Below are positions 1 through 8,670 of a stretch of 10,407 bases of DNA, in pieces. Numbering within the stretch: the first letter of the stretch is position 1; every line of letters begins with the position of its first letter. The position numbers were made by a program, and so were the translations under genes. The notes beneath the pieces are model-generated. The model worked only from the letters and a program-made list of their open reading frames with translations. It did no database searches and was not told where the DNA came from. The stretch comes from JBFLYE01 sp040756715 [NCBI: bacterium] (lineage in GTDB: Bacteria; UBA9089; UBA9088): NCBI GenBank assembly GCA_040756715.1, contig JBFLYE010000188.1, forward strand, positions 1 through 10,407, written 5' to 3'.

Positions 1-19
1 AAATACAAAAGTAAAAATT

Positions 20-29
20 AAGGTAAGGA
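20..29 (+). promoter_or_regulatory. Ribosome-binding site of adk
   Basis: AAGGTAAGGA ends nine bases before the ATG at 39. It supports that ATG as the translated start even though the conserved adenylate kinase body begins only about 25 codons later. The stretch from here to the ATG resembles the block before rpmJ around 1722-1745. Confidence 0.6.
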
Positions 30-38
30 TTTAATAAA

Positions 39-740
39 ATGCAGAAGAGAGAATTAAAAAATCCCGAATCCCGAGATACGAAGTATCGCAAAGCCATTTC
101 GAATTCCGAAATCCGAATTATTTTATTTGGTCCGCCGGGTGCGGGAAAGGGAACAGTGGCAAAGAGGCTGGTTGAAAGGTTTAAAATACCCCAGATTTCA
201 ACAGGCGATATGTTAAGGGATGCTGTATCCCATAAGACAGAAATGGGCCTTGCGGCAGAGGACTATATAAAAAAAGGGGAGCTTGTTCCAGATGATATAA
301 TTATTGGGATAATAAACGAGAGGATAAAAAACAAAGATTGCGAGCAGGGTTTTATTCTTGATGGATTTCCCAGGACAATAAACCAGGCAAAAACATTAGA
401 AAAAGCTGGAATAAAAATAGATAGGGTTATTAAATTGGATGTAGATTCTGAAACAATTATTAAAAGGAATACAGGAAGGAGGATATGTAAGGATTGTGGT
501 GCAATATATCATATAAAAAATCATCCTCCCAAGAAAGAGGGAATATGTGACAAGTGCCAAGGTGCCCTTTACCAGAGGGAGGATGATTGCGAGGAATATG
601 TAAGGCATAGAATAGATGTCTATCTTAAACAGACAATACCCCTTGTGGATTTCTATGAAAAAATGGGTATTTTGGCCTCTATAAATGGATGTGGAGACGA
701 AAACGAGGTTTTTGATAGGCTATTAAATGTGTTAAAATGA
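39..740 (+). CDS. adk: Adenylate kinase with zinc-type lid and unusual N-terminal extension
   Basis: Cytosolic enzyme converting ATP + AMP to 2 ADP. The P-loop GPPGAGKGT is at residues 31-39, the AMP-binding TGDMLR at 55-60, and the DGFPRT motif at 108-113. The lid carries C150, C153, C170 and C173, the four-cysteine metal-binding form, followed by QREDD. Bacterial Adk normally starts as M-R-I-I-L-F-G-P-P-G; here R-I-I-L-F-G begins at residue 26 and the first 25 residues have no family counterpart. Most of them (about residues 8-25) are encoded by a heptad repeat at 60-115. ATG 39 has a good ribosome-binding site, and no ATG, GTG or TTG lies nearer the conserved core. The stop overlaps map in an ATGA. 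The order adk-map-infA-rpmJ is the usual end of the spc operon; secY would be expected upstream but is outside the window. Confidence 0.97.
   Translation: MQKRELKNPESRDTKYRKAISNSEIRIILFGPPGAGKGTVAKRLVERFKIPQISTGDMLRDAVSHKTEMGLAAEDYIKKGELVPDDIIIGIINERIKNKDCEQGFILDGFPRTINQAKTLEKAGIKIDRVIKLDVDSETIIKRNTGRRICKDCGAIYHIKNHPPKKEGICDKCQGALYQREDDCEEYVRHRIDVYLKQTIPLVDFYEKMGILASINGCGDENEVFDRLLNVLK
60..115 (+). repeat. Heptad-phased repeat inside the 5' end of adk
   Basis: Exactly 56 bases divide into eight 7-mers. The first two are AATCCCG twice; the last three are CATTTCG, AATTCCG and AAATCCG, neighbours matching at 5-6 of 7 positions. The middle is degenerate but holds a perfect hairpin, GATAC (75-79) with GTATC (83-87). 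A second hairpin pairs ATTTCG (96-101) with CGAAAT (107-112). The array lies wholly inside the adk reading frame, between the start codon and the P-loop strand. Confidence 0.75.
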
Positions 741-1474
741 TAATACTTAAATCCAAAGAAGAGATAGAGAGGATAAAAATAGCAGGAGAAATAATCAAAA
801 ATACATTTTTGAAGCTTTCCGGGATGATAAAACCAGGGATTACCACGCTTTATTTAAATAATATAGCTCATAATTTGATAATAAAGGAGGGTGGAAGGCC
901 TGCATTCCTTGGTTATCGTGGATTCCCTTGCTCTATATGCACATCCATAAATGAGGAGGTAATCCACGGCATACCTAGCAAAAGAATCCTCAAAAATGGT
1001 GATTTATTAAAGGTAGATATTGGTGTATTTTATAAAGGGTATTGTGCAGATGCGGCAAGGACATATGCTATTGGCGATATATCCCCTTTATGTTTTAAGC
1101 TAAAAGATGTGGCATGTGAGGCATTTAAAAGGGCGATTTCTAATTGCAAAAATGGAGGTTCTACAAGGGATATATCTTATTCAATCCAAAATTATGTTGA
1201 AGGCTTTGGTTTTTCTGTTGTTCGGGATTTTGGAGGACATGGGATTGGAAAAGAGCTACACGAAGAGCCAGAGATTTTAAATTATGTATCCAAAGATAAT
1301 ATTCGCCTTAAAGAGGGAATGGTATTTTGCATAGAGCCAATGGTAAATGAGGGAAAGAGCGAGGTTTTTATACATTCCAATAAATGGACAGTGATCACAA
1401 AGGATAGAAAGCTATCAAGCCATTTTGAGGAGACGGTTGCCATTACAAACAATGGCGCCCTTATATTAACATGA
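737..1474 (+). CDS. map: Type I methionine aminopeptidase
   Basis: Removes the initiator methionine from nascent proteins in the cytosol. At 245 residues it has the length of the short type Ia enzyme without an N-terminal extension. The pita-bread metal ligands are in place: D94 (VDIGVF), D105 (CADAART), H168 (GGHGIG), E200 (FCIEPM) and E231 (HFEETVA). H77 in EEVIHGIP matches the substrate-contacting histidine. The start overlaps the adk stop as ATGA, and the stop overlaps infA in the same way, so translation is probably coupled across all three. No separate ribosome-binding site is evident. Confidence 0.97.
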
Positions 1475-1686
1475 AAAAAGAGGAGAAGGTAATTGTAAAG
1501 GGAAAGGTTTTGGAGGTTCTTCCCAATGCAATGTTTAAGGTCAAGGTCTCTGAAAAGCATATTGTTTTAGCGCATGTCTCTGGAAAAATGAGGATGCATT
1601 ATATAAAAATTCTTCCCGGTGATGAGGTTAATGTTGAAATCTCTCCCTATGACCTTACAAGGGGGAGGGTGATATATCGGGAATAA
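1471..1686 (+). CDS. infA: Translation initiation factor IF-1
   Basis: S1/OB-fold factor that binds the A site of the 30S subunit during initiation. The 71 residues match the family's usual length. Diagnostic segments are [15 protein letters not shown] near residue 10, [19 protein letters not shown] near 35-53, and [13 protein letters not shown] at the end. The ATG overlaps the map stop by four bases and has no good ribosome-binding site, so it likely depends on coupling to map. The following gap holds a heptad repeat and then rpmJ. Confidence 0.97.
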
Positions 1687-1719
1687 AAAATGCAAAATGC
1701 AAAACTTAAAACGCAAAAC
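1685..1719 (+). repeat. GCAAAAT-type heptad repeat between infA and rpmJ
   Basis: Five contiguous 7-mers share an AAAA core: AAAAAAT, GCAAAAT, GCAAAAC, then TTAAAAC and GCAAAAC. One further GCAAAAT lies at 1743-1749, after a 23-base spacer containing an initiation-like block. AT-rich composition weakens the case for the poorer copies, but the GCAAAA copies keep strict 7-base spacing. Confidence 0.6.
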
Positions 1720-1740
1720 TGTGGTAAAGATTTTATAAAA

Positions 1741-1752
1741 ATGCAAAATTGA
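1741..1752 (+). other. Possible three-codon upstream ORF (M-Q-N-stop) before rpmJ
   Basis: ATG CAA AAT TGA follows TGTGGTAAAGATTTTATAAAA, which resembles the adk and rpmJ initiation regions. Its stop overlaps the first bases of the rpmJ ribosome-binding site GAGGTGG. Whether it is translated cannot be told from sequence; it may be a by-product of a duplicated leader block. Confidence 0.25.
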
Positions 1753-1757
1753 GGTGG
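1751..1757 (+). promoter_or_regulatory. Ribosome-binding site of rpmJ
   Basis: GAGGTGG lies ten bases before the ATG at 1768 and fixes the start of this very short gene. Confidence 0.75.
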
Positions 1758-1767
1758 AAATTTAATA

Positions 1768-1881
1768 ATGAAAGTGGGAAGTTCGGTAAAGAAGATTTGC
1801 GAAAAGTGCAAGATTATAAAGAGAAAGGGAAGGGTAAGGGTGATTTGCCCAAATCCCAAGCATAAACAAAGACAGGGTTAA
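1768..1881 (+). CDS. rpmJ: 50S ribosomal protein L36 (bL36)
   Basis: A 37-residue zinc-ribbon protein of the large ribosomal subunit. The sequence starts [15 protein letters not shown] and ends [11 protein letters not shown], the classic bL36 signature. It keeps the full metal-binding set C11, C14, C27 and H32, so it is the zinc-bound (C+) form. Its length equals the usual 37-38 residues. It is too short for many gene callers. Its place after infA is the standard bacterial arrangement, but rpsM, rpsK, rpsD and rpoA do not follow. The stop TAA shares its last base with the ATG of the DUF3307 gene. Confidence 0.96.
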
Positions 1882-2216
1882 TGGCTGACCTAATATTGCG
1901 GGCGTTCCTTGCTCACATTGTCTCTGATGTTTTGCTTCAACCTGATATTCTTTCAAAAAAGAAGAGAAACGCAGGGAAATGGCTTATTGCCCATGGAATT
2001 ATTACCCTTATAGCCTTACTTTTCTTTGGTTGGGCTGTATCCCCTTATTTAAAATGGGCTTTGTTTTCCATTCTTACCTCCATTTCCCATTATTTTGTTG
2101 ATTTCTTTAGGATTAAAAGGGGTAAAAAGGGGATACTTATAAGCATATTAGACCAGACATTACATTTTGGCTTCATAGGTTTATTTCTCTTTCTCTTCTT
2201 TAAGTTACTACCTTAA
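1881..2216 (+). CDS. Small DUF3307-like integral membrane protein
   Basis: A 111-residue hydrophobic protein with about three predicted membrane segments (roughly residues 33-50, 55-72 and 94-110). It carries the pattern I associate with DUF3307: an N-terminal H-x3-D-x3-QPD run (H12, D16, Q20-D22), a histidine at 38, SHYFVDFFR at 69-77, and DQ-x2-H at 91-95. The conserved polar and histidine residues near the membrane faces suggest a catalytic or metal role, but the family's function is unknown to me. The start overlaps the rpmJ stop (TAATG), so it is probably translated with the ribosomal-protein genes. No partner gene in the window explains it. Confidence 0.8.
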   Translation: MADLILRAFLAHIVSDVLLQPDILSKKKRNAGKWLIAHGIITLIALLFFGWAVSPYLKWALFSILTSISHYFVDFFRIKRGKKGILISILDQTLHFGFIGLFLFLFFKLLP

Positions 2217-2248
2217 TGAATTTTTTAAGTTTTAAAAGCTTTATTTGC

Positions 2249-2277
2249 TTGACTTTTTAGGCATATTTTTGTAGAAT
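2249..2277 (+). promoter_or_regulatory. Sigma70-type promoter of the BON-pilBTC unit
   Basis: TTGACT (2249-2254) and TAGAAT (2272-2277) are 17 bases apart, close to the housekeeping consensus. The expected start point, about 2284, is almost at the ATG at 2286, so the first transcript would be leaderless or begin at a later codon. A second TATAAT at 2282-2287 has no matching -35 at standard spacing. Confidence 0.65.
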
Positions 2278-2285
2278 GTTATATA

Positions 2286-2564
2286 ATGATAGAGGATTGG
2301 CAAATAAATGTGGAAGTAAGAGCAGCTCTTGTAAAAAGATTTGTGGATACAAAAACCGTCAATGTCTCAACAAGTAATGGTTGTGTTCTTATAAAGGGTG
2401 AACTAGGTTTTGTTGGACAAAATGTGGAAGAGGAGCATATCCCTTCTATCCTTTCAAAGATTGAAGAGGATATAAAATATATAAAAGGGGTAAAAGACCT
2501 TAAGATAAATTTTAAAGACTGGATAAAAGTAAATCAAAGATGGATAAACCTCAAGGAACTTTAA
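2286..2564 (+). CDS. Small BON-domain-like protein
   Basis: A 92-residue protein without signal peptide or membrane segment, so probably cytoplasmic. Residues 11-40 (VRAALVKRF, then VNVSTSNGCVLIKGEL) and 68-79 (GVKDLKINFKDW) have the strand-turn-strand rhythm of the BON fold: an NG turn, a VxLxGEL strand, and a GV-x-x-L second half. BON domains usually bind membranes or ligands, but this copy is divergent and the assignment is moderate. Its last 25 bases overlap pilB in another frame, tying its translation to the pilus motor and suggesting a pilus-related role by context only. ATG 2286 would be leaderless from the promoter just upstream. GTG 2310 (residue 9), preceded by AGAGGA, is an alternative start that keeps the whole domain. 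Confidence 0.6.
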   Translation: MIEDWQINVEVRAALVKRFVDTKTVNVSTSNGCVLIKGELGFVGQNVEEEHIPSILSKIEEDIKYIKGVKDLKINFKDWIKVNQRWINLKEL

Positions 2565-4246
2565 AGGGAAAGCATTTAATTGGAAATATGCTTGTTGAGG
2601 CAAGGCTTCTTACAAAAGAGGGGCTTGAAAGGGCAATATTAGAACAAAAAAAGACAGCTGAACAATTTTCAAGGGTATTGATAAGATTAGGCTTGATAGA
2701 GGAAGAAGCCCTGGTTGCATTTTTGGGAAGCAAGTTTAATATCCCTTATATTGACCTTTCAAAAGCACCTATCGATATCCTTGCTGTTTCCCTTATCCGC
2801 TATGAAACAGCAAAGAAATACCTTCTTTTTCCATTTGCCAAGGAGGATTCTGTTTTAAAGATTGCGATGGTTGATCCCTTAAATGCCACTGTAATAAATG
2901 AGGTTGTTGTAGAGACAGGCTATCAGATAAAACCACATATTGCCTCAGACACAGGGATAAGAAATGCGATTAAGGAGTATTATGAAGCAGGGTTATTAGA
3001 TGAAAAGAAGCAAGATACAAAAAAGAAGATTGAGGTCAAGGTTGTCTCTGATGAGATGAATATAGATAAAATTATGCGTCAAGGCTCTGAGGCACCTTTA
3101 ATAAACCTGGTTAACCATCTATTAACCGAGGCGGTTAAAGCAAAGGCATCTGATATCCATATCGAACCATATGAGCATTCTTTAAGGATAAGATATAGAA
3201 TAGACGGTATTCTCTATGAGGTTGCCTCTCCACCAAAAGAGCTTCTTCATCCCCTTATCTCAAGGGTAAAGATTATGTCAGAAATGGATATTTCAGAAAG
3301 AAGGCTTCCTCAGGATGGAAGGGCAAAGCTTAGGATTGAAGGAAGGGAGGTAGATTTCAGGGTTTCAACCATTCCCACAAACTTTGGCGAGAAATCCGTG
3401 ATAAGAATCTTGGATTCATCTGCTTTATGCGTTGACCTTACTTCCCTTGGTTTTGAACCAGATGCCCTGAGTATATTTGAAAAGAACATAAATGTTCCCC
3501 ATGGAATGATTCTGGTTACAGGTCCAACCGGAAGTGGGAAGACAACAACCCTTTACTCTGCCTTAAGAAGCATAAATACACCCGATAAGAATATTGTTAC
3601 AATAGAGGACCCCGTTGAATTTGTCCTTGCTGGCGTTAATCAGGTTCAGGCAAAGCCCGATATTGGATTTGATTTTGCATCAGGTTTAAGGTCATTTATG
3701 AGGCAGGACCCCGATATTATTCTGGTTGGTGAAATAAGAGACAGGGAGACAGCAGAGGTTGCCATAAATGCTGCCTTAACCGGTCATCTGGTTTTTTCAA
3801 CCCTTCATACAAATGACGCAGCGGGTGCGGTAACACGGCTTGTTAATATGGGGGTTGAGCCATTTTTAATAGCTTCAACAGTAGTTATGGTGGTTGCCCA
3901 GAGGCTGGTTAGAAAGCTTTGTGATTGTAAGGTTGCTTATGAAGTTCCGGGAGAAAGCCTAAGAAGTATGGGAATAGATGTCTGGGAAAATGTGGTTACA
4001 TTATACAAGCCTAATGGATGCGAAAAATGCGTGAATATTGGTTATAAAGGAAGGTCTGGTGTATATGAGATCCTTGTGGCAAATGAGCAGATTAAGGAAC
4101 TAATTCTCCATAGAGAATCATCCCATGTTATCTATAAAGCTGCGGTTGATAGCGGGATGATCACATTAAGGGAAGCAGCGGTAAGAAAGGTTCTCTCTGG
4201 AGCTACATCCATTGATGAGATGATGAGGATAACCTCGGAAGCGTAA
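2540..4246 (+). CDS. pilB: Type IV pilus extension ATPase PilB (GspE family)
   Basis: Cytoplasmic hexameric motor ATPase that powers pilus assembly, or secretion if this were a type II system. Residues 10-150 are an MshEN/GspE N-terminal domain (GNMLVEARLLT; IPYIDL). The ATPase core holds Walker A GPTGSGKT at 328-335, the Asp box EDPVE at 356-360, Walker B ILVGEIRD at 394-401, and the His box TLHTND near 421-426. The cysteine pair C494/C497 (GCEKC) is normal, but its partner is C461-D-C463, a CxC where CxxC is usual. The 568-residue length is normal. The gene starts inside the BON-like gene and is followed by pilT and pilC; the pilT neighbour favours a type IV pilus over type II secretion. 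Confidence 0.93.
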   Translation: MDKPQGTLKGKHLIGNMLVEARLLTKEGLERAILEQKKTAEQFSRVLIRLGLIEEEALVAFLGSKFNIPYIDLSKAPIDILAVSLIRYETAKKYLLFPFAKEDSVLKIAMVDPLNATVINEVVVETGYQIKPHIASDTGIRNAIKEYYEAGLLDEKKQDTKKKIEVKVVSDEMNIDKIMRQGSEAPLINLVNHLLTEAVKAKASDIHIEPYEHSLRIRYRIDGILYEVASPPKELLHPLISRVKIMSEMDISERRLPQDGRAKLRIEGREVDFRVSTIPTNFGEKSVIRILDSSALCVDLTSLGFEPDALSIFEKNINVPHGMILVTGPTGSGKTTTLYSALRSINTPDKNIVTIEDPVEFVLAGVNQVQAKPDIGFDFASGLRSFMRQDPDIILVGEIRDRETAEVAINAALTGHLVFSTLHTNDAAGAVTRLVNMGVEPFLIASTVVMVVAQRLVRKLCDCKVAYEVPGESLRSMGIDVWENVVTLYKPNGCEKCVNIGYKGRSGVYEILVANEQIKELILHRESSHVIYKAAVDSGMITLREAAVRKVLSGATSIDEMMRITSEA

Positions 4247-4259
4247 TGATTTTTAAATG

Positions 4260-4276
4260 TTGAATTTAGAATTCAA
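4260..4276 (+). repeat. Small inverted repeat and heptad-like words between pilB and pilT
   Basis: TTGAATT (4260-4266), a TAG loop and AATTCAA (4270-4276) form a perfect 7-bp stem. Read from 4262 the stretch also divides into GAATTTA, GAATTCA and AAATTTC. Both stem and heptads are AT-rich and could be chance, but they fit the pattern of the other gaps. No T-run follows, so it does not look like a terminator. Confidence 0.4.
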
Positions 4277-4291
4277 AATTTCTTAAGTAAG

Positions 4292-5395
4292 ATGCTTACA
4301 ATGGAGTTTTTGGTGCATGAGATGGTTGAAAAGGGAGCCTCTGACATCCATCTTGTGATTGGCACACCACCACAACTCAGGATTGATGGTATAATGATGC
4401 CGATTGAGGGAATGGAGCGTCTTATGCCAGATGCCTGCCAGCAGCTTATCTACTCTGTCCTTACCGATGAGCAAAAAAGGAGGTTTGAGGAAGAGAATGA
4501 ACTTGATATATCCTTTGGTGTCAAAGATGTGGGAAGGATAAGGATGAATGTCTTTAGACAAAGGGGAACAATCGGAGCAGCCTTAAGGGGAATTCCTAAC
4601 GAAATTCCAAACTTTGATCAGCTTGGCCTTCCTTCTGTGGTAAAAAAGATTGCCGAAATTCCCGTTGGCCTTGTCCTTGTTACCGGTCCAACCGGAACAG
4701 GAAAGTCAACCACCTTGGCCTCAATGATTGATTATCTAAACACAAACAAAAAAGCACATATCATTACGGTTGAAGACCCAATTGAATTTCTCCATAGACA
4801 TAAAAATTGTATTGTTGTTCAAAGAGAGGTGGGAGCTGATACAAAGTCATTTGCCGCTGCTCTAAAGCATATGTTAAGGCAAGACCCTGATATAATTCTT
4901 GTAGGTGAGATGAGAGACTTAGAAACAATCTCTGCTGCACTAACCATAGCAGAAACAGGCCACCTTGTCTTTGCAACCCTCCATACACCCGATGCCATTC
5001 AATCGGTAAATAGAATTATTGATGTCTATCCTGCCCATCAACAACAACAGATAAGGGCACAGCTTTCTTTTGTTCTAAAGGCAACCATATCACAAGCCCT
5101 TATTCCCCATGCCAGTGGAAAGGGTAGGGTTGTTTGCTGTGAGATTCTTATTTCAACCCCGGCGATTGCAAATTTAATTAGGGATGGAAAGATTCATCAA
5201 GCATATACCATTATGCAGGCAGGAAAGCAATTTGGTATGCAGACAATGAATTCAGGCTTGACCGATTTATATAGAAGGGGAATGATTACTTATGAAAATG
5301 CAATGATTCATTCTCAAGACCCAGAAGGTCTTAAGAAGATGCTCACAGGAGGAGCAACACAAGCACAGACAATGCTTAAGGCAGGAGGATACTAA
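4292..5395 (+). CDS. pilT: Type IV pilus retraction ATPase PilT
   Basis: Hexameric cytoplasmic ATPase that depolymerises the pilus and drives twitching. The start region has the PilT hallmark GASDIHL (residues 15-21) with the PPQLRIDG strand. Walker A GPTGTGKS is at 132-139, the Asp box EDPIE at 161-165, Walker B ILVGEMRD at 202-209, and the His box TLHTPDA at 229-235. A C-terminal AIANLIRDGK (291-300) corresponds to the PilT-specific AIRNLIREGK, with Ala replacing the conserved Arg. The length of 367 residues is ordinary. ATG 4292 is used; the ATG three codons later is equally possible, and neither has a strong ribosome-binding site. Confidence 0.94.
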   Translation: MLTMEFLVHEMVEKGASDIHLVIGTPPQLRIDGIMMPIEGMERLMPDACQQLIYSVLTDEQKRRFEEENELDISFGVKDVGRIRMNVFRQRGTIGAALRGIPNEIPNFDQLGLPSVVKKIAEIPVGLVLVTGPTGTGKSTTLASMIDYLNTNKKAHIITVEDPIEFLHRHKNCIVVQREVGADTKSFAAALKHMLRQDPDIILVGEMRDLETISAALTIAETGHLVFATLHTPDAIQSVNRIIDVYPAHQQQQIRAQLSFVLKATISQALIPHASGKGRVVCCEILISTPAIANLIRDGKIHQAYTIMQAGKQFGMQTMNSGLTDLYRRGMITYENAMIHSQDPEGLKKMLTGGATQAQTMLKAGGY

Positions 5396-5398
5396 AGT

Positions 5399-5470
5399 GC
5401 ACCAGAACACCAGTCACCAGTCATAGCGGTATATTTTTTACTGGTGTCCTGGTGCTTTAGTGCTCTGGTG
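5399..5470 (+). repeat. CACCAG / CTGGTG inverted array filling the pilT-pilC gap
   Basis: Three CACCAG words begin at 5400, 5408 and 5415, and three complementary CTGGTG words begin at 5441, 5449 and 5465. The arms 5399-5414 and 5440-5455 pair over 16 positions with one mismatch, giving a strong hairpin with a 25-base loop. Spacing between words is 7 or 8 bases, or 16. No T-run follows, so intrinsic termination is unlikely; it could act as an mRNA processing or attenuation element. Confidence 0.85.
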
Positions 5471-5471
5471 A
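5467..5471 (+). promoter_or_regulatory. Ribosome-binding site of pilC, formed by the repeat
   Basis: GGTGA lies nine bases before the pilC ATG and matches the GGTGA part of the AAGGAGGTGATC complement of the 16S rRNA 3' end. It is part of the last CTGGTG word of the inverted array, so the repeat seems to provide the initiation site. Pairing with an upstream CACCAG word could hide it. Confidence 0.5.
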
Positions 5472-5480
5472 CTATTTATT

Positions 5481-6704
5481 ATGGCGGTATTTAATTATAA
5501 GGCAAAGGATGCAAGGGGCGCTCCTGTCTCGGGAAAGATAGAGGCGGCTAATCTAAAAGAGGCATTAGCCAAGCTTAGAGGCCAAGGCTTAAGGGTTTTA
5601 TCAACCGAGCAACAAAAAGGGGGTCTTGCTATTGAAGGTCTACTTGGTAAGATAAATATCTTAGCCAGGCCTGGTCTGGGAGATAAAGTTATCTTTTCTC
5701 GCCAGCTTTCAACCCTTATAAATGCAGGTATCCCGGTTGTTCAATGTTTAAATATCCTTATTGAACAGGTAAAAAAGAAATCCTTCCAGAAGATATTAAC
5801 AGATGTCCGAAGGGATATTGAGGGTGGTGAATTTATTTCATCTGCTTTGGCAAAGCATCCATCCTGCTTTGATCGACTCTATGTAAGTATGGTCAAATCA
5901 GGTGAGATAGGTGGTGTTTTGGATGAGGTTTTGGAAAGAATTGCCGCATACCTTGAGAACATTGCCGAGCTAAGGAGAAAGGTTATCGGTGCAATGGTAT
6001 ATCCTGCAATGATACTCTTGGTTGCCATTGCTGTTGTCGCATTCCTTCTTGTATTTGTTATCCCAAAATTTAAGGAGGTATTTGAGGTATTTGGGGAAAA
6101 GCTTCCCAAGCCAACCCAGATATTGATAAAAATCTCTGACTTTCTTGTTCATTGGGTATGGCTTGTTTTCCTTATAATATTTGTTATTGTGGTTATATTT
6201 AATATAGCGATTAACCGATCAGCTAAAATAAGGCTACAATGGCATCGTATTATCCTTAAAATTCCTTTATTCGGTGACTTGTTTAGAAAGATAGCCATCG
6301 CCAGATTTACGCGCACTTTGGGAACTCTGGTAAGATCCGGTGTTCCAATCCTTGAGGCATTGGATATTGTTGCCCAAACATCTGGAAATAGGGTGGTTGA
6401 GCTTGCTATCCTTGATGCAAGGAATGCTATCAAGGAGGGAGAGAGAATTTCAGATCCCTTAAAGAGATCCGGCGTATTTCCTCCTATGGTGATTCAGATG
6501 ATCTCAGTAGGAGAGGAAACCGGTGCTTTGGATGCAATGCTATTTAAGGCAGCAGATTACTATGATCGGGAGGTTGATGCTACAGTGGCTGCTTTATCCT
6601 CTATTCTTGAACCAATGATGATTGTTATCCTTGGAGTAGTTGTTGGATTTATTGTTGTTTGTATGTATCTTCCCATATTTAGCCTTCCTGGGATGATAAA
6701 ATGA
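5481..6704 (+). CDS. pilC: Type IV pilus inner-membrane platform protein PilC (GspF family)
   Basis: Polytopic platform protein on which the PilB and PilT motors act during pilus extension and retraction. The 407-residue length is normal. The start MAVFNYKAKDARG is typical of the family. There are two T2SSF domains, about residues 68-195 (FSRQLSTLINAGIPV) and 270-400 (ARFTRTLGTLVRSGVPILEAL). Membrane segments lie near 171-195, 221-243 and 377-398. The motifs SGEIGGVLDEVL (140-151) and VGEETGALDAML (343-354) mark the paired repeats. It follows pilT after the inverted array. No pilin, prepilin peptidase or pilMNOPQ gene occurs in the window, so the rest of the machine must be elsewhere. Confidence 0.94.
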   Translation: MAVFNYKAKDARGAPVSGKIEAANLKEALAKLRGQGLRVLSTEQQKGGLAIEGLLGKINILARPGLGDKVIFSRQLSTLINAGIPVVQCLNILIEQVKKKSFQKILTDVRRDIEGGEFISSALAKHPSCFDRLYVSMVKSGEIGGVLDEVLERIAAYLENIAELRRKVIGAMVYPAMILLVAIAVVAFLLVFVIPKFKEVFEVFGEKLPKPTQILIKISDFLVHWVWLVFLIIFVIVVIFNIAINRSAKIRLQWHRIILKIPLFGDLFRKIAIARFTRTLGTLVRSGVPILEALDIVAQTSGNRVVELAILDARNAIKEGERISDPLKRSGVFPPMVIQMISVGEETGALDAMLFKAADYYDREVDATVAALSSILEPMMIVILGVVVGFIVVCMYLPIFSLPGMIK

Positions 6705-6773
6705 ATAATTGCAAATTGTAAATTGTAAATTGAGAAAGGTATAAAAATTTAAAATCTAAAATTTACAATTTCA
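6704..6773 (+). repeat. Ten-heptad array between pilC and the oxidoreductase
   Basis: The gap divides into ten 7-mers from the last base of the pilC stop to two bases before the next ATG. Two blocks are clear: GCAAATT followed by two GTAAATT (6711-6731), and AATTTAA, AATCTAA, AATTTAC, AATTTCA (6746-6773), with neighbours matching at 5-7 of 7. The blocks are near-complements: AAATTGTAAATT (6720-6731, also 6713-6724) pairs perfectly with AATTTACAATTT (6760-6771). The hairpin loop contains GAGAAAGG. Confidence 0.75.
6732..6739 (+). promoter_or_regulatory. Displaced Shine-Dalgarno-like site before the oxidoreductase
   Basis: GAGAAAGG is the only purine-rich site near the ATG at 6775 but lies 35 bases away, far beyond working distance. 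Four heptads (28 bases, 6746-6773) sit between; without them the spacing would be 7. In the predicted hairpin the site is in the loop and the stem would partly shorten the effective distance. Function is inference. Confidence 0.35.
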
Positions 6774-6774
6774 A

Positions 6775-8580
6775 ATGGAGATTGCACCCTGTGTAGATAA
6801 GTGTCCAATTAATCTTCCCATCCCAGATTATATCAGGCTAACCTGTGAGGGGAGGTTTGATGAGGCATATTCTTTAATCGTCCGAGAGACACCAATCCCC
6901 TCAATACTTGGAAGGATATGCTTTCATCCCTGTGAGGATGTCTGCCGAAGGGGTGAGGTTGATGAAGCCATAAGCATATGCAATATCAAGAGGTTTTTGG
7001 GAGATACCATCTCATCCCTTCCAAAGCAAAAGGTATTTCAAAAAGAGAGGATAGCAGTTATAGGGGGTGGTCCATCTGGCCTCTCTTGTGCCTGGCATCT
7101 TCTTCAGCTAGGATACAGGGTTGATGTATTTGAAGAAAAGGAGTCTGCGGGAGGAATGCCATATATCACCATTCCTTCCTGGAGGCTTCCCTTGGATATT
7201 TTAAAAAGGGAGATGATAAATCTTGTAGATGCTGGTCTTTCTATAAAGACAAACAAGAGGTTGGGAGATGATTTTTCATTAGATGACCTAAAAAAAGAAT
7301 ACGATGCTGTTGTGATTGCCTGTGGTCTTCCCTTAAACAGGGAGATAAAAGCAATTAAAGGTGATGATGTAATCTTGGCTTTGGAATTTCTTGAGGCAAT
7401 AAAATTTAAAAGGGAGGTTTCTCTTAAAAAGAGGGTTTTGGTTATCGGTGGAGGCAATGTTGCCATTGATTGTGCTAGGGCATCTTTAAGAATGAAAAGG
7501 GATGTCTCTCTTGTTTGTCTTGAGGATTACGAGAATATGCCTTGTTTTAAAGGGGAAAAGATAAAAGCAGAAGAGGAAGGGGTAAAAATCTTTCCTGAAC
7601 TTGGGCCAAAAGAATTGATAAGAGAGAATGGAAAGATAAAGCAATTGATAGCTATGAAGGTTTTAAAGCTATTTGATGAAAATAAAAGATTTTCCCCTCA
7701 ATTTAATGAAGATGAGATAAAAACCTTTAATGTAGACACAATAATTATGGCGATTGGTCAGATGGCAGATTGGACGGCTTTAAAAAGGGGAGGCATTACC
7801 CAGGATATGTTGAAAGAAGATGGCTTGAATGGCTTATTTGCCTGCGGAGACATTGTTTTAGGACCAACGAATGTAGCTAGTGCGATTGCTTCTGGAAAGA
7901 GGGTTGCGATGAATGTTCATTTAAAAGTCAGGAGTCAGGAGTCAAGAGTCAGGACTCAGGAGGTATATGATTTAATTTCATCGATTTCTTCTCCTGTAAT
8001 TCCCTTTATTGCCAAAAGAGAAAGGGTAAAACCCGAATGTTTAGGGATTGAGGAAAGGTGTGCTTCATTTAATGAAATAGAGAAAACATATACATTGGAT
8101 GATGTTTTTCTTGAGTCGTCACGCTGCCTTTATTGTGGAAAAGGGCCAGAGCAGAAAAAGGAGACCTGCCCTTTATGCCTTACCTGCATAAGAATCTGCC
8201 CACTTAAGGGGATAAAAAGGGAAGAAAAAAGGGCTTTTCTCTCCTCTCAAGATTGCCAATCCTGCGGCATATGTGCAGGGTTATGTCCAGACAATGCAAT
8301 AAGAGAGGATGGGATTCTCCTAAAAGATAAATACCCAAAGGAGGTAACCATAGCCTGTTTTGATTACCCATTATCTGATGCAATAAGGGTTCGCTGTCTT
8401 TTAAGTGTTGGAATTCCCTTTTTCCTTTCCTTGATGGAAAAGGGCGTAGAAAAATTTTTTATAAAACCCTGTAGGGAAGGCTGTTTTGTCCCAAGTGCAA
8501 AACCCTACATTTCTAAAATGATAAGCAGGCTTGAGAAAATTTTGAAAGAGATAGGGCTTACAGGGGTTATAAATTTTTAA
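6775..8580 (+). CDS. GltD-like FAD/NAD(P) iron-sulfur oxidoreductase with two 4Fe-4S clusters and MvhD-like tail
   Basis: Probable cytosolic electron-transfer flavoprotein. An N-terminal cysteine region (C6, C10, C49, C53, C57; RICFHPCEDVCRRGEVDE) matches the Fe-S domain of glutamate synthase small subunits. The FAD site is IGGGPSG (96-102), the pyridine-nucleotide site IGGGNVA (224-230), and the second FAD motif ACGDI (356-360). A heptad-encoded linker at about 384-396 follows. Then comes a ferredoxin domain with C465, C468, C471, C475 and C494, C497, C500, C504. The tail (C528, C541, C566, C570) resembles MvhD, the subunit linking hydrogenase to heterodisulfide reductase. GltD proteins are near 470 residues, so this 601-residue form is not plain GltD. 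No GltB, hydrogenase or Hdr gene adjoins it, so the partner and substrate are unknown. ATG 6775 is the only usable start: an in-frame TAA lies at 6757. Confidence 0.85.
   Translation: MEIAPCVDKCPINLPIPDYIRLTCEGRFDEAYSLIVRETPIPSILGRICFHPCEDVCRRGEVDEAISICNIKRFLGDTISSLPKQKVFQKERIAVIGGGPSGLSCAWHLLQLGYRVDVFEEKESAGGMPYITIPSWRLPLDILKREMINLVDAGLSIKTNKRLGDDFSLDDLKKEYDAVVIACGLPLNREIKAIKGDDVILALEFLEAIKFKREVSLKKRVLVIGGGNVAIDCARASLRMKRDVSLVCLEDYENMPCFKGEKIKAEEEGVKIFPELGPKELIRENGKIKQLIAMKVLKLFDENKRFSPQFNEDEIKTFNVDTIIMAIGQMADWTALKRGGITQDMLKEDGLNGLFACGDIVLGPTNVASAIASGKRVAMNVHLKVRSQESRVRTQEVYDLISSISSPVIPFIAKRERVKPECLGIEERCASFNEIEKTYTLDDVFLESSRCLYCGKGPEQKKETCPLCLTCIRICPLKGIKREEKRAFLSSQDCQSCGICAGLCPDNAIREDGILLKDKYPKEVTIACFDYPLSDAIRVRCLLSVGIPFFLSLMEKGVEKFFIKPCREGCFVPSAKPYISKMISRLEKILKEIGLTGVINF
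7926..7960 (+). repeat. AGTCAGG heptad repeat inside the oxidoreductase gene
   Basis: Five perfect-register 7-mers: AGTCAGG at 7926, 7933 and 7947, AGTCAAG at 7940, and ACTCAGG at 7954. At least six of seven bases match the word in every copy. It encodes a charged, Ser/Arg/Gln-rich stretch (about residues 384-396) between the flavin domain and the C-terminal ferredoxin part, without breaking the frame. Confidence 0.92.
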
Positions 8581-8606
8581 GTTATAAAGTTTTAAAGTTT
8601 ATTAAA
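8566..8606 (+). repeat. GTTATAAA-type repeat spanning the oxidoreductase stop codon
   Basis: GTTATAAA occurs at 8566-8573 and 8581-8588, followed by GTTTTAAA (8589-8596) and GTTTATTAAA. The period is 7-8 bases. The first copy encodes the last residues of the oxidoreductase (V-I-N-F), so the array crosses the stop. AT-richness lowers certainty. Confidence 0.5.
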
Positions 8607-8612
8607 TTTTCC

Positions 8613-8642
8613 TTGACAGCAAGATAAGGGAAATTATATAAT
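8613..8642 (+). promoter_or_regulatory. Strong sigma70-type promoter of tuf
   Basis: TTGACA (8613-8618) and TATAAT (8637-8642) are both perfect consensus hexamers with an 18-base spacer. A TATATA at 8635-8640 gives a 16-base alternative. The start point would be near 8649, leaving a leader of about 20 bases with an ideal ribosome-binding site. Confidence 0.85.
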
Positions 8643-8656
8643 TTTTTAAAATTTTT

Positions 8657-8662
8657 GGAGGT
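8657..8662 (+). promoter_or_regulatory. Ribosome-binding site of tuf
   Basis: GGAGGT ends eight bases before the ATG at 8671. It is the strongest initiation site in the window, as expected for an abundant protein. Confidence 0.9.
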
Positions 8663-8670
8663 AAAGTAAT

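Follow-up and report, generated by a model that had tools for sequence, protein, structure and literature searches.

Short tandem arrays of 7 to 9 bp units at shared sites with changing words in JBFLYE01 sp040756715 and a congener

The 10,407-nucleotide stretch analysed here (the window; contig C188, JBFLYE010000188.1, of G000, the draft genome of JBFLYE01 sp040756715, 1,552,737 bases in 218 contigs) contains a series of short tandem arrays, mostly of 7-bp units, between and within its genes. We compared them with the arrays of G001, a congener and the nearest genome to the window among those compared, and of G002, a relative in the same family; the nearest named genome, G061 of bacterium UBA9088 (L036), gives the places of G002, and the two were treated as one genome. 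The arrays of G000 and G001 have a common period, often lie at sites that both species share although the repeated word usually changes, mostly keep the reading frame inside genes and tend to fall within a narrow range of lengths.

Genes and arrays of the window

The genes of the window, named from Pfam matches, are adk, Peptidase_M24, infA, DUF3307, a BON-domain gene, two T2SSE genes (pilB- and pilT-like), a T2SSF gene (pilC-like), an oxidoreductase and tuf, and the sequence at 1768 is presumably rpmJ; all features below are given on the forward strand. An initial annotation had described five clear and two weaker arrays with a period of 7, sometimes 8, in the intergenic gaps, and their periodicity was assessed against 300 dinucleotide shuffles of the whole window and 500 of each region (local shuffles). 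The AGTCAGG array of five units at 7926-7961 (25 of 28 lag-7 matches over 7926-7960) and the hairpin with heptamer arms AATTGTA and TACAATTT at 6700-6774, in the gap after the T2SSF gene (42 of 63 over 6704-6773), were matched by none of the 300 shuffled windows, and the AAAATGC/AAAACGC array at 1685-1719 (21 of 28) by one of them. The array at 60-115 (26 of 49 at lag 7) was reached by none of the 500 local shuffles but by 58 of the 300 shuffled windows, so its significance is local only. At 5399-5470, in the gap before the T2SSF gene, lag 7 is not significant (local p 0.116) and lag 8 is reached by 0 of 500 local shuffles and 80 of 300 windows; a hairpin whose arms are CACCAG/CTGGTG describes this feature (5396-5474, with 7-8 bp units) better. 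As for the weaker pair, 4260-4282 has a local p of 0.006 but is reached by 283 of the 300 shuffled windows, and 8566-8606 has period 8, not 7 (4 of 300 windows). Thus three of the described arrays stand above shuffled windows and a fourth locally, and they are intergenic only in part, as 60-115 and 7926-7961, two of the five clear ones, lie inside reading frames.

The region around the start of adk combines two kinds of sequence. A weak copy of the core of a dispersed element (GGTAAGGATTTAATAAAA; 1-58) lies upstream of the gene and includes its start codon at 39; positions 1-39 correspond to element positions 16-54 at 82%, and the same core precedes adk in G001. It is followed by AATCCCG/AATTCCG heptamer units with a GATACGAAGTATC mini-palindrome (75-87), which run in frame within the adk open reading frame (ORF) at 60-118 and account for the greater part of 24 codons behind the start codon; by reading, these codons are absent from G001, whose adk begins ATG AGA ATA ATT. 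Short GAA-loop palindromes (GATACGAAGTATC, GTTTAGCGAAGCTAAAC) recur near arrays, in the window at 75-87, in L184 near 911 and in several flanks.

In the infA-rpmJ gap, the array and the core behind it (1685-1748) form the left part of the dispersed element, and the G001 ortholog has ATTGTAA words instead. The gap between the two T2SSE genes has a weak AT-rich period 7 (4247-4291) and, in G001, AAAATGC-type units. The AGTCAGG array occupies residues 384-395 of the 601-residue oxidoreductase (ORF 6775-8580), in frame and between its Pyr_redox_2 (92-374) and Fer4 (465-509) matches, and the G001 linker consists of 8-bp units, GTCAGAGG, that score only 7 at lag 8. The AT-rich period-8 stretch at 8566-8606 spans the oxidoreductase stop codon, with 8566-8580 being the end of the ORF, and lies before tuf.

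Periodicity, words and hairpins across the genomes

The G000 sample comprised 41 contigs including that of the window (278,361 of the 1,552,737 bases), and 36 contigs (228,610 bp) make up its unselected set; four G000 contigs and a first G001 batch were picked by match to the window or to an array word, a second G001 batch was picked by contig number, and arrays containing N were dropped. The unselected contigs gave 20, 34 and 7 self-match segments at lags 7, 14 and 21, with 6, 5 and 3 at lags 8, 16 and 19, 0-2 at lags 5, 6, 9-13 and 15, and 0-0.3 in shuffles. The lag-7 excess proposed from the window is therefore found in the sampled contigs beyond it and the arrays are not confined to the window; 7-bp tandem units are in excess genome-wide, judged by these contigs, as in the heptameric repeats known as short tandemly repeated repetitive (STRR) sequences or long simple sequence repeats. 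Four contigs of G002 (38,566 bp) contained no lag-7 or lag-14 segment, compared with 9.1 expected at the G000 density. Whole-genome counts of RRRAGTC x3 are 27 in G000, 55 in G001 and 7 in G002, with none of the reversed pattern in each, which indicates that arrays exist in G002 but are rarer. In the samples, ATACGAAGTAT occurs 4 times in G000 and 3 times in G001 (reversed 0), and TTTAGCGAAGCTAAA 0 and 4 times.

In the rest of the phylum arrays are patchy and often have other words. A universal word grammar was considered and rejected: over 19 genomes, RRRAGTC x3 is commoner forward in 8, commoner reversed in 7 and equal in 4, and because this balance flips, the word preference is lineage-specific. 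G005 (129 reversed vs 1 forward) and G013 (53 vs 0) show the opposite of G000 and G001. Among 386 genomes, 12 contain (AGGAGTC)x3, namely 6 of the 19 in the phylum sample and 6 of the 367 others, and none contains its reversal.

The common period with differing words, as first noted in the window, holds in the larger samples, where the 59 G000 arrays use 23 distinct words and the 125 G001 arrays use 52. AAAATTC alone accounts for 29 of the 59 G000 arrays and is largely one dispersed element. By reading, the common words AAAATTC, AAAATGC, AAAAGTC, AAAACTC and AAGACAG are without a run of three G, which is found in the minor words AAGTGGG and AGTCGGG. An intergenic preference, as in other heptameric repeats, is apparent: 37 of 59 arrays in G000 and 65 of 125 in G001 do not touch ORFs of at least 450 bp, and non-ORF DNA (ORFs of at least 70 codons) makes up 6,865 of 76,536 bases in 16 unselected contigs. 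Despite this preference, 17 and 48 arrays, respectively, lie wholly within ORFs of at least 450 bp, and the arrays are thus not an intergenic feature only.

Two populations of arrays can be distinguished, a dispersed element with AAAANNN words and arrays without flank copies in the sample. The element has AAAANNN heptamers, then a core near GTGGTAAAGATTTAATAAAA, then inverted heptamers. A 96-bp AAAATGC/core/AGTTTTG query gave at least 50 matches in G001, at least 21 in G000 and, at a single place, 2 in G002 (40 of 117 and 40 of 42 candidates scored), and the stretch 1681-1749 has at least 23 listed matches at 77-90% in G001 (40 of 226 scored), so the initial view that the arrays are not copies of a single element does not apply to all of them. 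The core GGTAAGGATTT after arrays was rejected as a part of every element, since in some genes it is YfhO coding sequence and before adk it is the pre-start region. Another dispersed element of at least about 90 bp, with AATTCAA/TTGAATT arms, is near-identical in many G000 copies (L188:12811-12897), and contigs often end in it. Taken over all words, inverted arms lie above the permuted mean (27 of 59 arrays vs 17.8 in G000, 31 of 125 vs 20.4 in G001), but the reversed-word control gives 16 and 26, and GC-rich words do no better than permuted ones.

These observations raise the possibility that the arrays are arms of a non-autonomous transposing element and that the periodicity is a property of that element, which we regard as improbable for the arrays at large. 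The copy numbers of the element agree with it, as do the flank homology elsewhere in the sample of 39 of 65 G001 and 5 of 22 G000 arrays in a strict set of 87 (paralogous genes included) and two window gaps that fold well. However, for 43 of the 87 strict arrays the rest of the sample contains nothing homologous to the flanks; many of these have GC-richer words, and most lie inside genes. GC-rich words, moreover, are not paired as inverted arms. Repetitive extragenic palindromic (REP) and REPIN elements are short dispersed hairpins in gaps moved by Y1 transposases, and only the AAAANNN subset resembles them as high-copy dispersed short inverted repeats in gaps; it differs in that no REP-type Y1 (TnpA-REP) transposase was found in the four genomes G000-G003, where other transposases were not searched, with 5 of 14 known genomes positive in the control. 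A reverse transcriptase as mover (diversity-generating retroelement) was rejected, with no RVT_1 match in G000; G001 (C102:5714-6460) and G002 (C109) each have one reverse transcriptase gene.

Hairpin folding also bears on whether use by a protein, as RNA structure or as a G-quadruplex (G4) keeps the arrays, with the words following the binding partner. Hairpins persist with new words at two gaps: 5396-5474 folds with z -4.3 in the window (CACCAG/CTGGTG) and -5.5 in G001 (AAAANNN), and 6700-6774 with z -2.3 and -4.0; the coding array at 7920-7965 folds above shuffles as well (z -4.35). The gap at 4247-4291 has z -0.9 in the window and -2.1 in G001. Folding is not clearly above shuffles in either species for the adk gap (z -0.6 and 0.0 in the window, 0.3 in G001) and the infA-rpmJ gap (0.0 and -1.1). 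Although heptamers of Xanthomonas and Nostoc form G4 in vitro with a preference for four units, as far as the excerpts of PMC4692102 go, many words here (AAAAGTC, AAAATGC, AAGACAG) have no G runs, many words occur in one genome and arrays run in frame inside enzymes, and function as the general cause of the arrays seems to us quite improbable.

Shared sites, reading frames and array length

Arrays scoring at least 12 (36 in G000, 87 in G001) were taken as starting arrays and a score of at least 9 was counted at the orthologous site. Such a site was present in the other sample for 7 of the 36 and 10 of the 87, and it held an array in 5 of 7 cases from G000 to G001 and 6 of 10 from G001 to G000, compared with 3 of 96 and 0 of 49 random positions (those with a sampled ortholog out of 400 drawn per direction). 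With the two L148 arrays taken as one gap and three sites present in both directions, there are 13 distinct sites, 7 of them with an array in each species, whereas random sites gave 3 of 145 (Fisher p 4e-7).

The word differs at six of the seven shared sites, which bears out the claim of changing words at matching places in a relative. In two cases one base is changed in all units, GAGAAGA vs AAGACAG and TTTTGAG vs AGTTTTA; at L190/L243, (GAGAAGA)x5 and (AAGACAG)x4.6 have perfect units in each species at a word distance of 1. Three shared gaps have words 3 to 5 bases apart (word distance 5/7 for L162/L231, 4/7 for L148/L242), at L191/L235 the unit itself changes from ACTTTTG (7 bp) to CTGACCCC (8 bp), and the 9-bp pair L204/L171 keeps its consensus word.

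Site sharing could also arise without inheritance if ordinary slippage repeatedly makes new arrays at the few places, such as gaps and protein loops, that tolerate insertions, and we give this independent birth a modest probability. The idea of slippage with a 7-nt preference reportedly stems from Mrazek and colleagues (2007). Such a preference is described in the available excerpts of PMC4679880 and PMC4692102, and independent birth would account for the unrelated words at L162/L231 and L148/L242, for the 6 of 13 distinct sites without a clear array in the other species and for the state of UBA9088, where the gap at 4247-4291 is almost empty, no array is found in the gap at 5396-5474 and the 38,566 bp of G002 contain no lag-7 or lag-14 segment. 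It does not sit well with the same or one-step words at L190/L243, L205/L232 and L204/L171 or with site sharing far above that of random sites; furthermore, slippage predicts falling lengths and steps of 7, whereas peaked lengths and coding steps in multiples of 3 were found.

Inside genes the reading frame is respected. The frame test left out those of the 87 strict arrays that lie near contig ends (6), are not flanked by coding sequence on both sides (37) or have differing strands (3); among the remaining 41, with an open reading frame on either flank, 35 keep the frame. For an exact overlap of 24-30 nt the ratio is 15 of 18, and the three exceptions (L147, L240:11216, L244:16135) look, by reading, like gene starts or junctions. 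The expectation that arrays vary by multiples of 7 was not borne out: four sites open in frame in both species differ by 9, 12, 15 and 21 nt, adk by 72 nt and the oxidoreductase by 12 nt, a single multiple of 7 among six coding sites (18 and 39 nt cases, not open in frame over 120 bp on both sides, are omitted). Neither the whole-unit steps nor the falling length distribution of replication-slippage microsatellites is observed.

Pfam matches were obtained for 8 of ten array-bearing proteins, L190 and L182 matching no family, and the families include triosephosphate isomerase, LpxB, tryptophan synthase alpha (array before the domain), YfhO and a TMEM260-like protein. In 45 of 59 arrays the coding strand is the purine-rich one, and these arrays read as polar linkers such as KSQKSKVKSQKS. 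Among the 14 arrays with the other strand sense, 8 start within the first 30 residues, vs 5 of the 45 with purine-rich coding, and these 8 read as hydrophobic N-termini, e.g. MQNSKFLSYLLLLSSLFSLLSSPAYC in L190 (signal peptides judged by eye). One 8-bp word, AAAGGCAC and relatives, was observed in the different genes L175, L245, L192 and L146, and the pyrimidine strand of such a word reads as a hydrophobic N-terminus such as LCAFVPLCLCAF. In G001, an array at residues 246-257 (SRVKSQESRVK) joins FdhD (29-249) and NadA (265-557) in one frame (L230:18243-19925); a single open match of 1,683 bases spans FdhD and NadA in G000 (G000:C119:22332-24014), the junction array having been read in G001 only, and in G006 the match has two stops. 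Five YfhO-like loops of G001 (Pfam confirmed YfhO for one of the five proteins) have an equal 13 residues between GWKA(Y/F) and EV. Two of them are near-identical copies with an AAAACT-type word, and the other three have AAAAGTC, CACCAGAG (8 bp) and AGGAGTC; an array-free paralog is 9 residues shorter.

The arrays are also similar in size. Length minus period lies within 24-30 in 32 of 43 independent arrays, with medians of 27 for 7-bp units (30 arrays) and 28 for 8-bp units (9 arrays) and values of 14, 22, 27 and 30 for the four 9-bp arrays, and the longest exact overlap among the 87 arrays is 30. Outside the genus, 16 of 54 fall in the 24-30 band and 20 lie above 37, in a set that is biased towards longer arrays by the inclusion of loci fetched for holding (AGGAGTC)x3. 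A 395-bp coding array with 9-bp units (GGACAGAGT) was seen at L214:4488-4882 in G005, of the same phylum.

A length peak could be produced if perfect arrays longer than the assembly k-mer collapsed to a fixed length. Both genomes are fragmentary drafts, the near-constant length minus period for units of 7 and 8 is as k-mer collapse predicts, and G000 arrays lie within 60 bp of 10 of 81 contig ends and 3 of 18 N runs. Nevertheless, 9 of the 10 array-bearing contig ends belong to one dispersed AATTCAA family, and G001 arrays are near only 3 of 54 contig ends and 0 of 5 N runs. Collapse would keep the frame in about a third of genes rather than in the 15 of 18 found. The assemblies also resolve longer exact repeats, the longest being 167 bp in G000 and 773 bp in G001, inside contigs and no closer than 300 bp to an end. 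On both grounds an assembly cause is very unlikely, and it would touch the length claim only.

Origin of the arrays and relation to known heptameric repeats

The process required by these data must homogenise units whatever their word, accept unit lengths of 7, 8 and 9 bp and come to a halt near a fixed overlap; slipped-strand template switching with unit loss and regrowth fits this description. With slightly better than even confidence, we propose long-lived array sites at which all units change their word together. Slipped-strand template switching, subject to a length limit, would be the probable mechanism, and a subset of the arrays would be dispersed hairpin elements. There would be one class of short tandem arrays with units of 7 bp, less often 8 or 9, and a total length of typically 32-38 bp, at sites in intergenic gaps, protein loops, linkers, gene ends and N-termini. 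The site would often be inherited and the word would not, the units of an array being rewritten together and sometimes acquiring a new unit length. At replication or repair the growing strand would retreat by one unit and copy the previous word over the next one, and because of this copying a mutation would spread through the array. A limit on exact direct-repeat overlap (at most 30 nt) would hold arrays at about five units, within genes only frame-keeping changes would survive, and the AAAANNN words would form the arms of the dispersed hairpin element. The data themselves show the periodicity, the sharing of sites, the change of words, the kept frames and the narrow range of lengths; that sites are inherited rather than re-inserted into, the template switching and the cause of the length limit are inferred from these patterns. 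Minimal homology for RecA recombination in E. coli is about 23-27 bp. The overlap limit lies near this value, and our guess is that RecA recombination could trim longer arrays.

Several observations weigh against the proposal of long-lived, rewritten sites. Six of the 13 distinct sites, to which the comparison is limited, have no array of score 9 in the other species: W:6707 and L166:5926 score 0 although gap alignments show period-7 sequence, W:7926, L226:358 and L235:13982 have only weak arrays (score 6-7) and L226:2847 has no array there. Gaps are few, so the co-occurrence of arrays in them may partly be chance, and half-rewritten intermediates were not seen. Since the length differences in coding sites are multiples of 3 and mostly not of 7, single-unit slippage is not the direct step. 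Outside the genus arrays reach 395 bp, and the length limit is thus not general. Finally, a general inverted pairing of arms was not supported for GC-rich words, which are paired in 2 of 15 and 4 of 47 cases against permuted means of 1.4 and 3.3, although single gaps fold well.

A further, rather doubtful reading is that in this genus stretches of ~27 nt plus one unit are overwritten with copies of one 7-9 nt word by a process that meters length. It would act at near-constant length, in frame and recurrently at the same sites, making linkers where the purine strand is sense, hydrophobic N-termini and membrane segments where the pyrimidine strand is sense, and gene fusions such as FdhD-NadA. 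If this reading were true, one mutational process would supply ready-made protein parts.

The arrays belong to the already known heptameric repeats, such as those of Xanthomonas, Nostoc and Geobacter, as a variant of them. Cyanobacterial STRR heptamers comprise several tandem heptamer words in one genome. They are similar to the arrays here in this respect, as likened from description only, and the initial annotation had rightly pointed to heptameric repeats as the nearest described parallel. The excerpts of PMC4692102 mention Calothrix and Nostoc heptamers and describe the Xanthomonas and Nostoc GGGAATC and GGGGA(C/T)T heptamers as tandem and dispersed over the genome, with four units preferred, in 70 and 75 cases as inverted pairs and mostly non-coding (11% and 7% intragenic in Xanthomonas); in two Xanthomonas species most repeats lie between the same genes, with extensive variation in length and sequence. 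Set against these excerpts, the likeness lies in the dispersed tandem heptamers and the small preferred copy number (four there, about five here), whereas there the word families are G-rich and here there are dozens of words, the common ones lacking G tracts by reading, with about a third of the arrays inside longer ORFs, in frame, and 8-bp units having an equal overlap length. The part of PMC2700814 consulted reports in Geobacter metallireducens 49 elements of four GGACCGG-type units within and between genes and 15 sites of five MTYCTGA units with alignment switching strands; the few-unit heptamer arrays within and between genes are alike, but those are fixed-consensus families considered putative regulatory elements, and word turnover at shared sites is not described in that part. 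In marine Beggiatoaceae, the excerpts of PMC4679880 describe the single word TAACTGA, with related heptamers rarely or never repeated and ORF positions exceptional, unlike the 23 and 52 distinct words in the samples here, where no single word dominates in that manner. In the literature searched, we found no report of many words per genome together with in-frame arrays and shared sites.

Why heptamers dominate the long tandem repeats of bacteria is an open question; the proposals in the available parts of PMC4692102 and PMC4679880 are that the polymerase slips with a footprint of 7 nt and that G-rich words form G4. Arrays here keep their preferred size in words without G runs and with units of either 7 or 8 bp, and their words change at sites that stay shared. 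This favours sequence-blind rewriting with a length limit and speaks against G4 selection as what generally sets copy number. The data also show short arrays serving conserved enzymes as a source of linkers, hydrophobic N-termini and a gene fusion.

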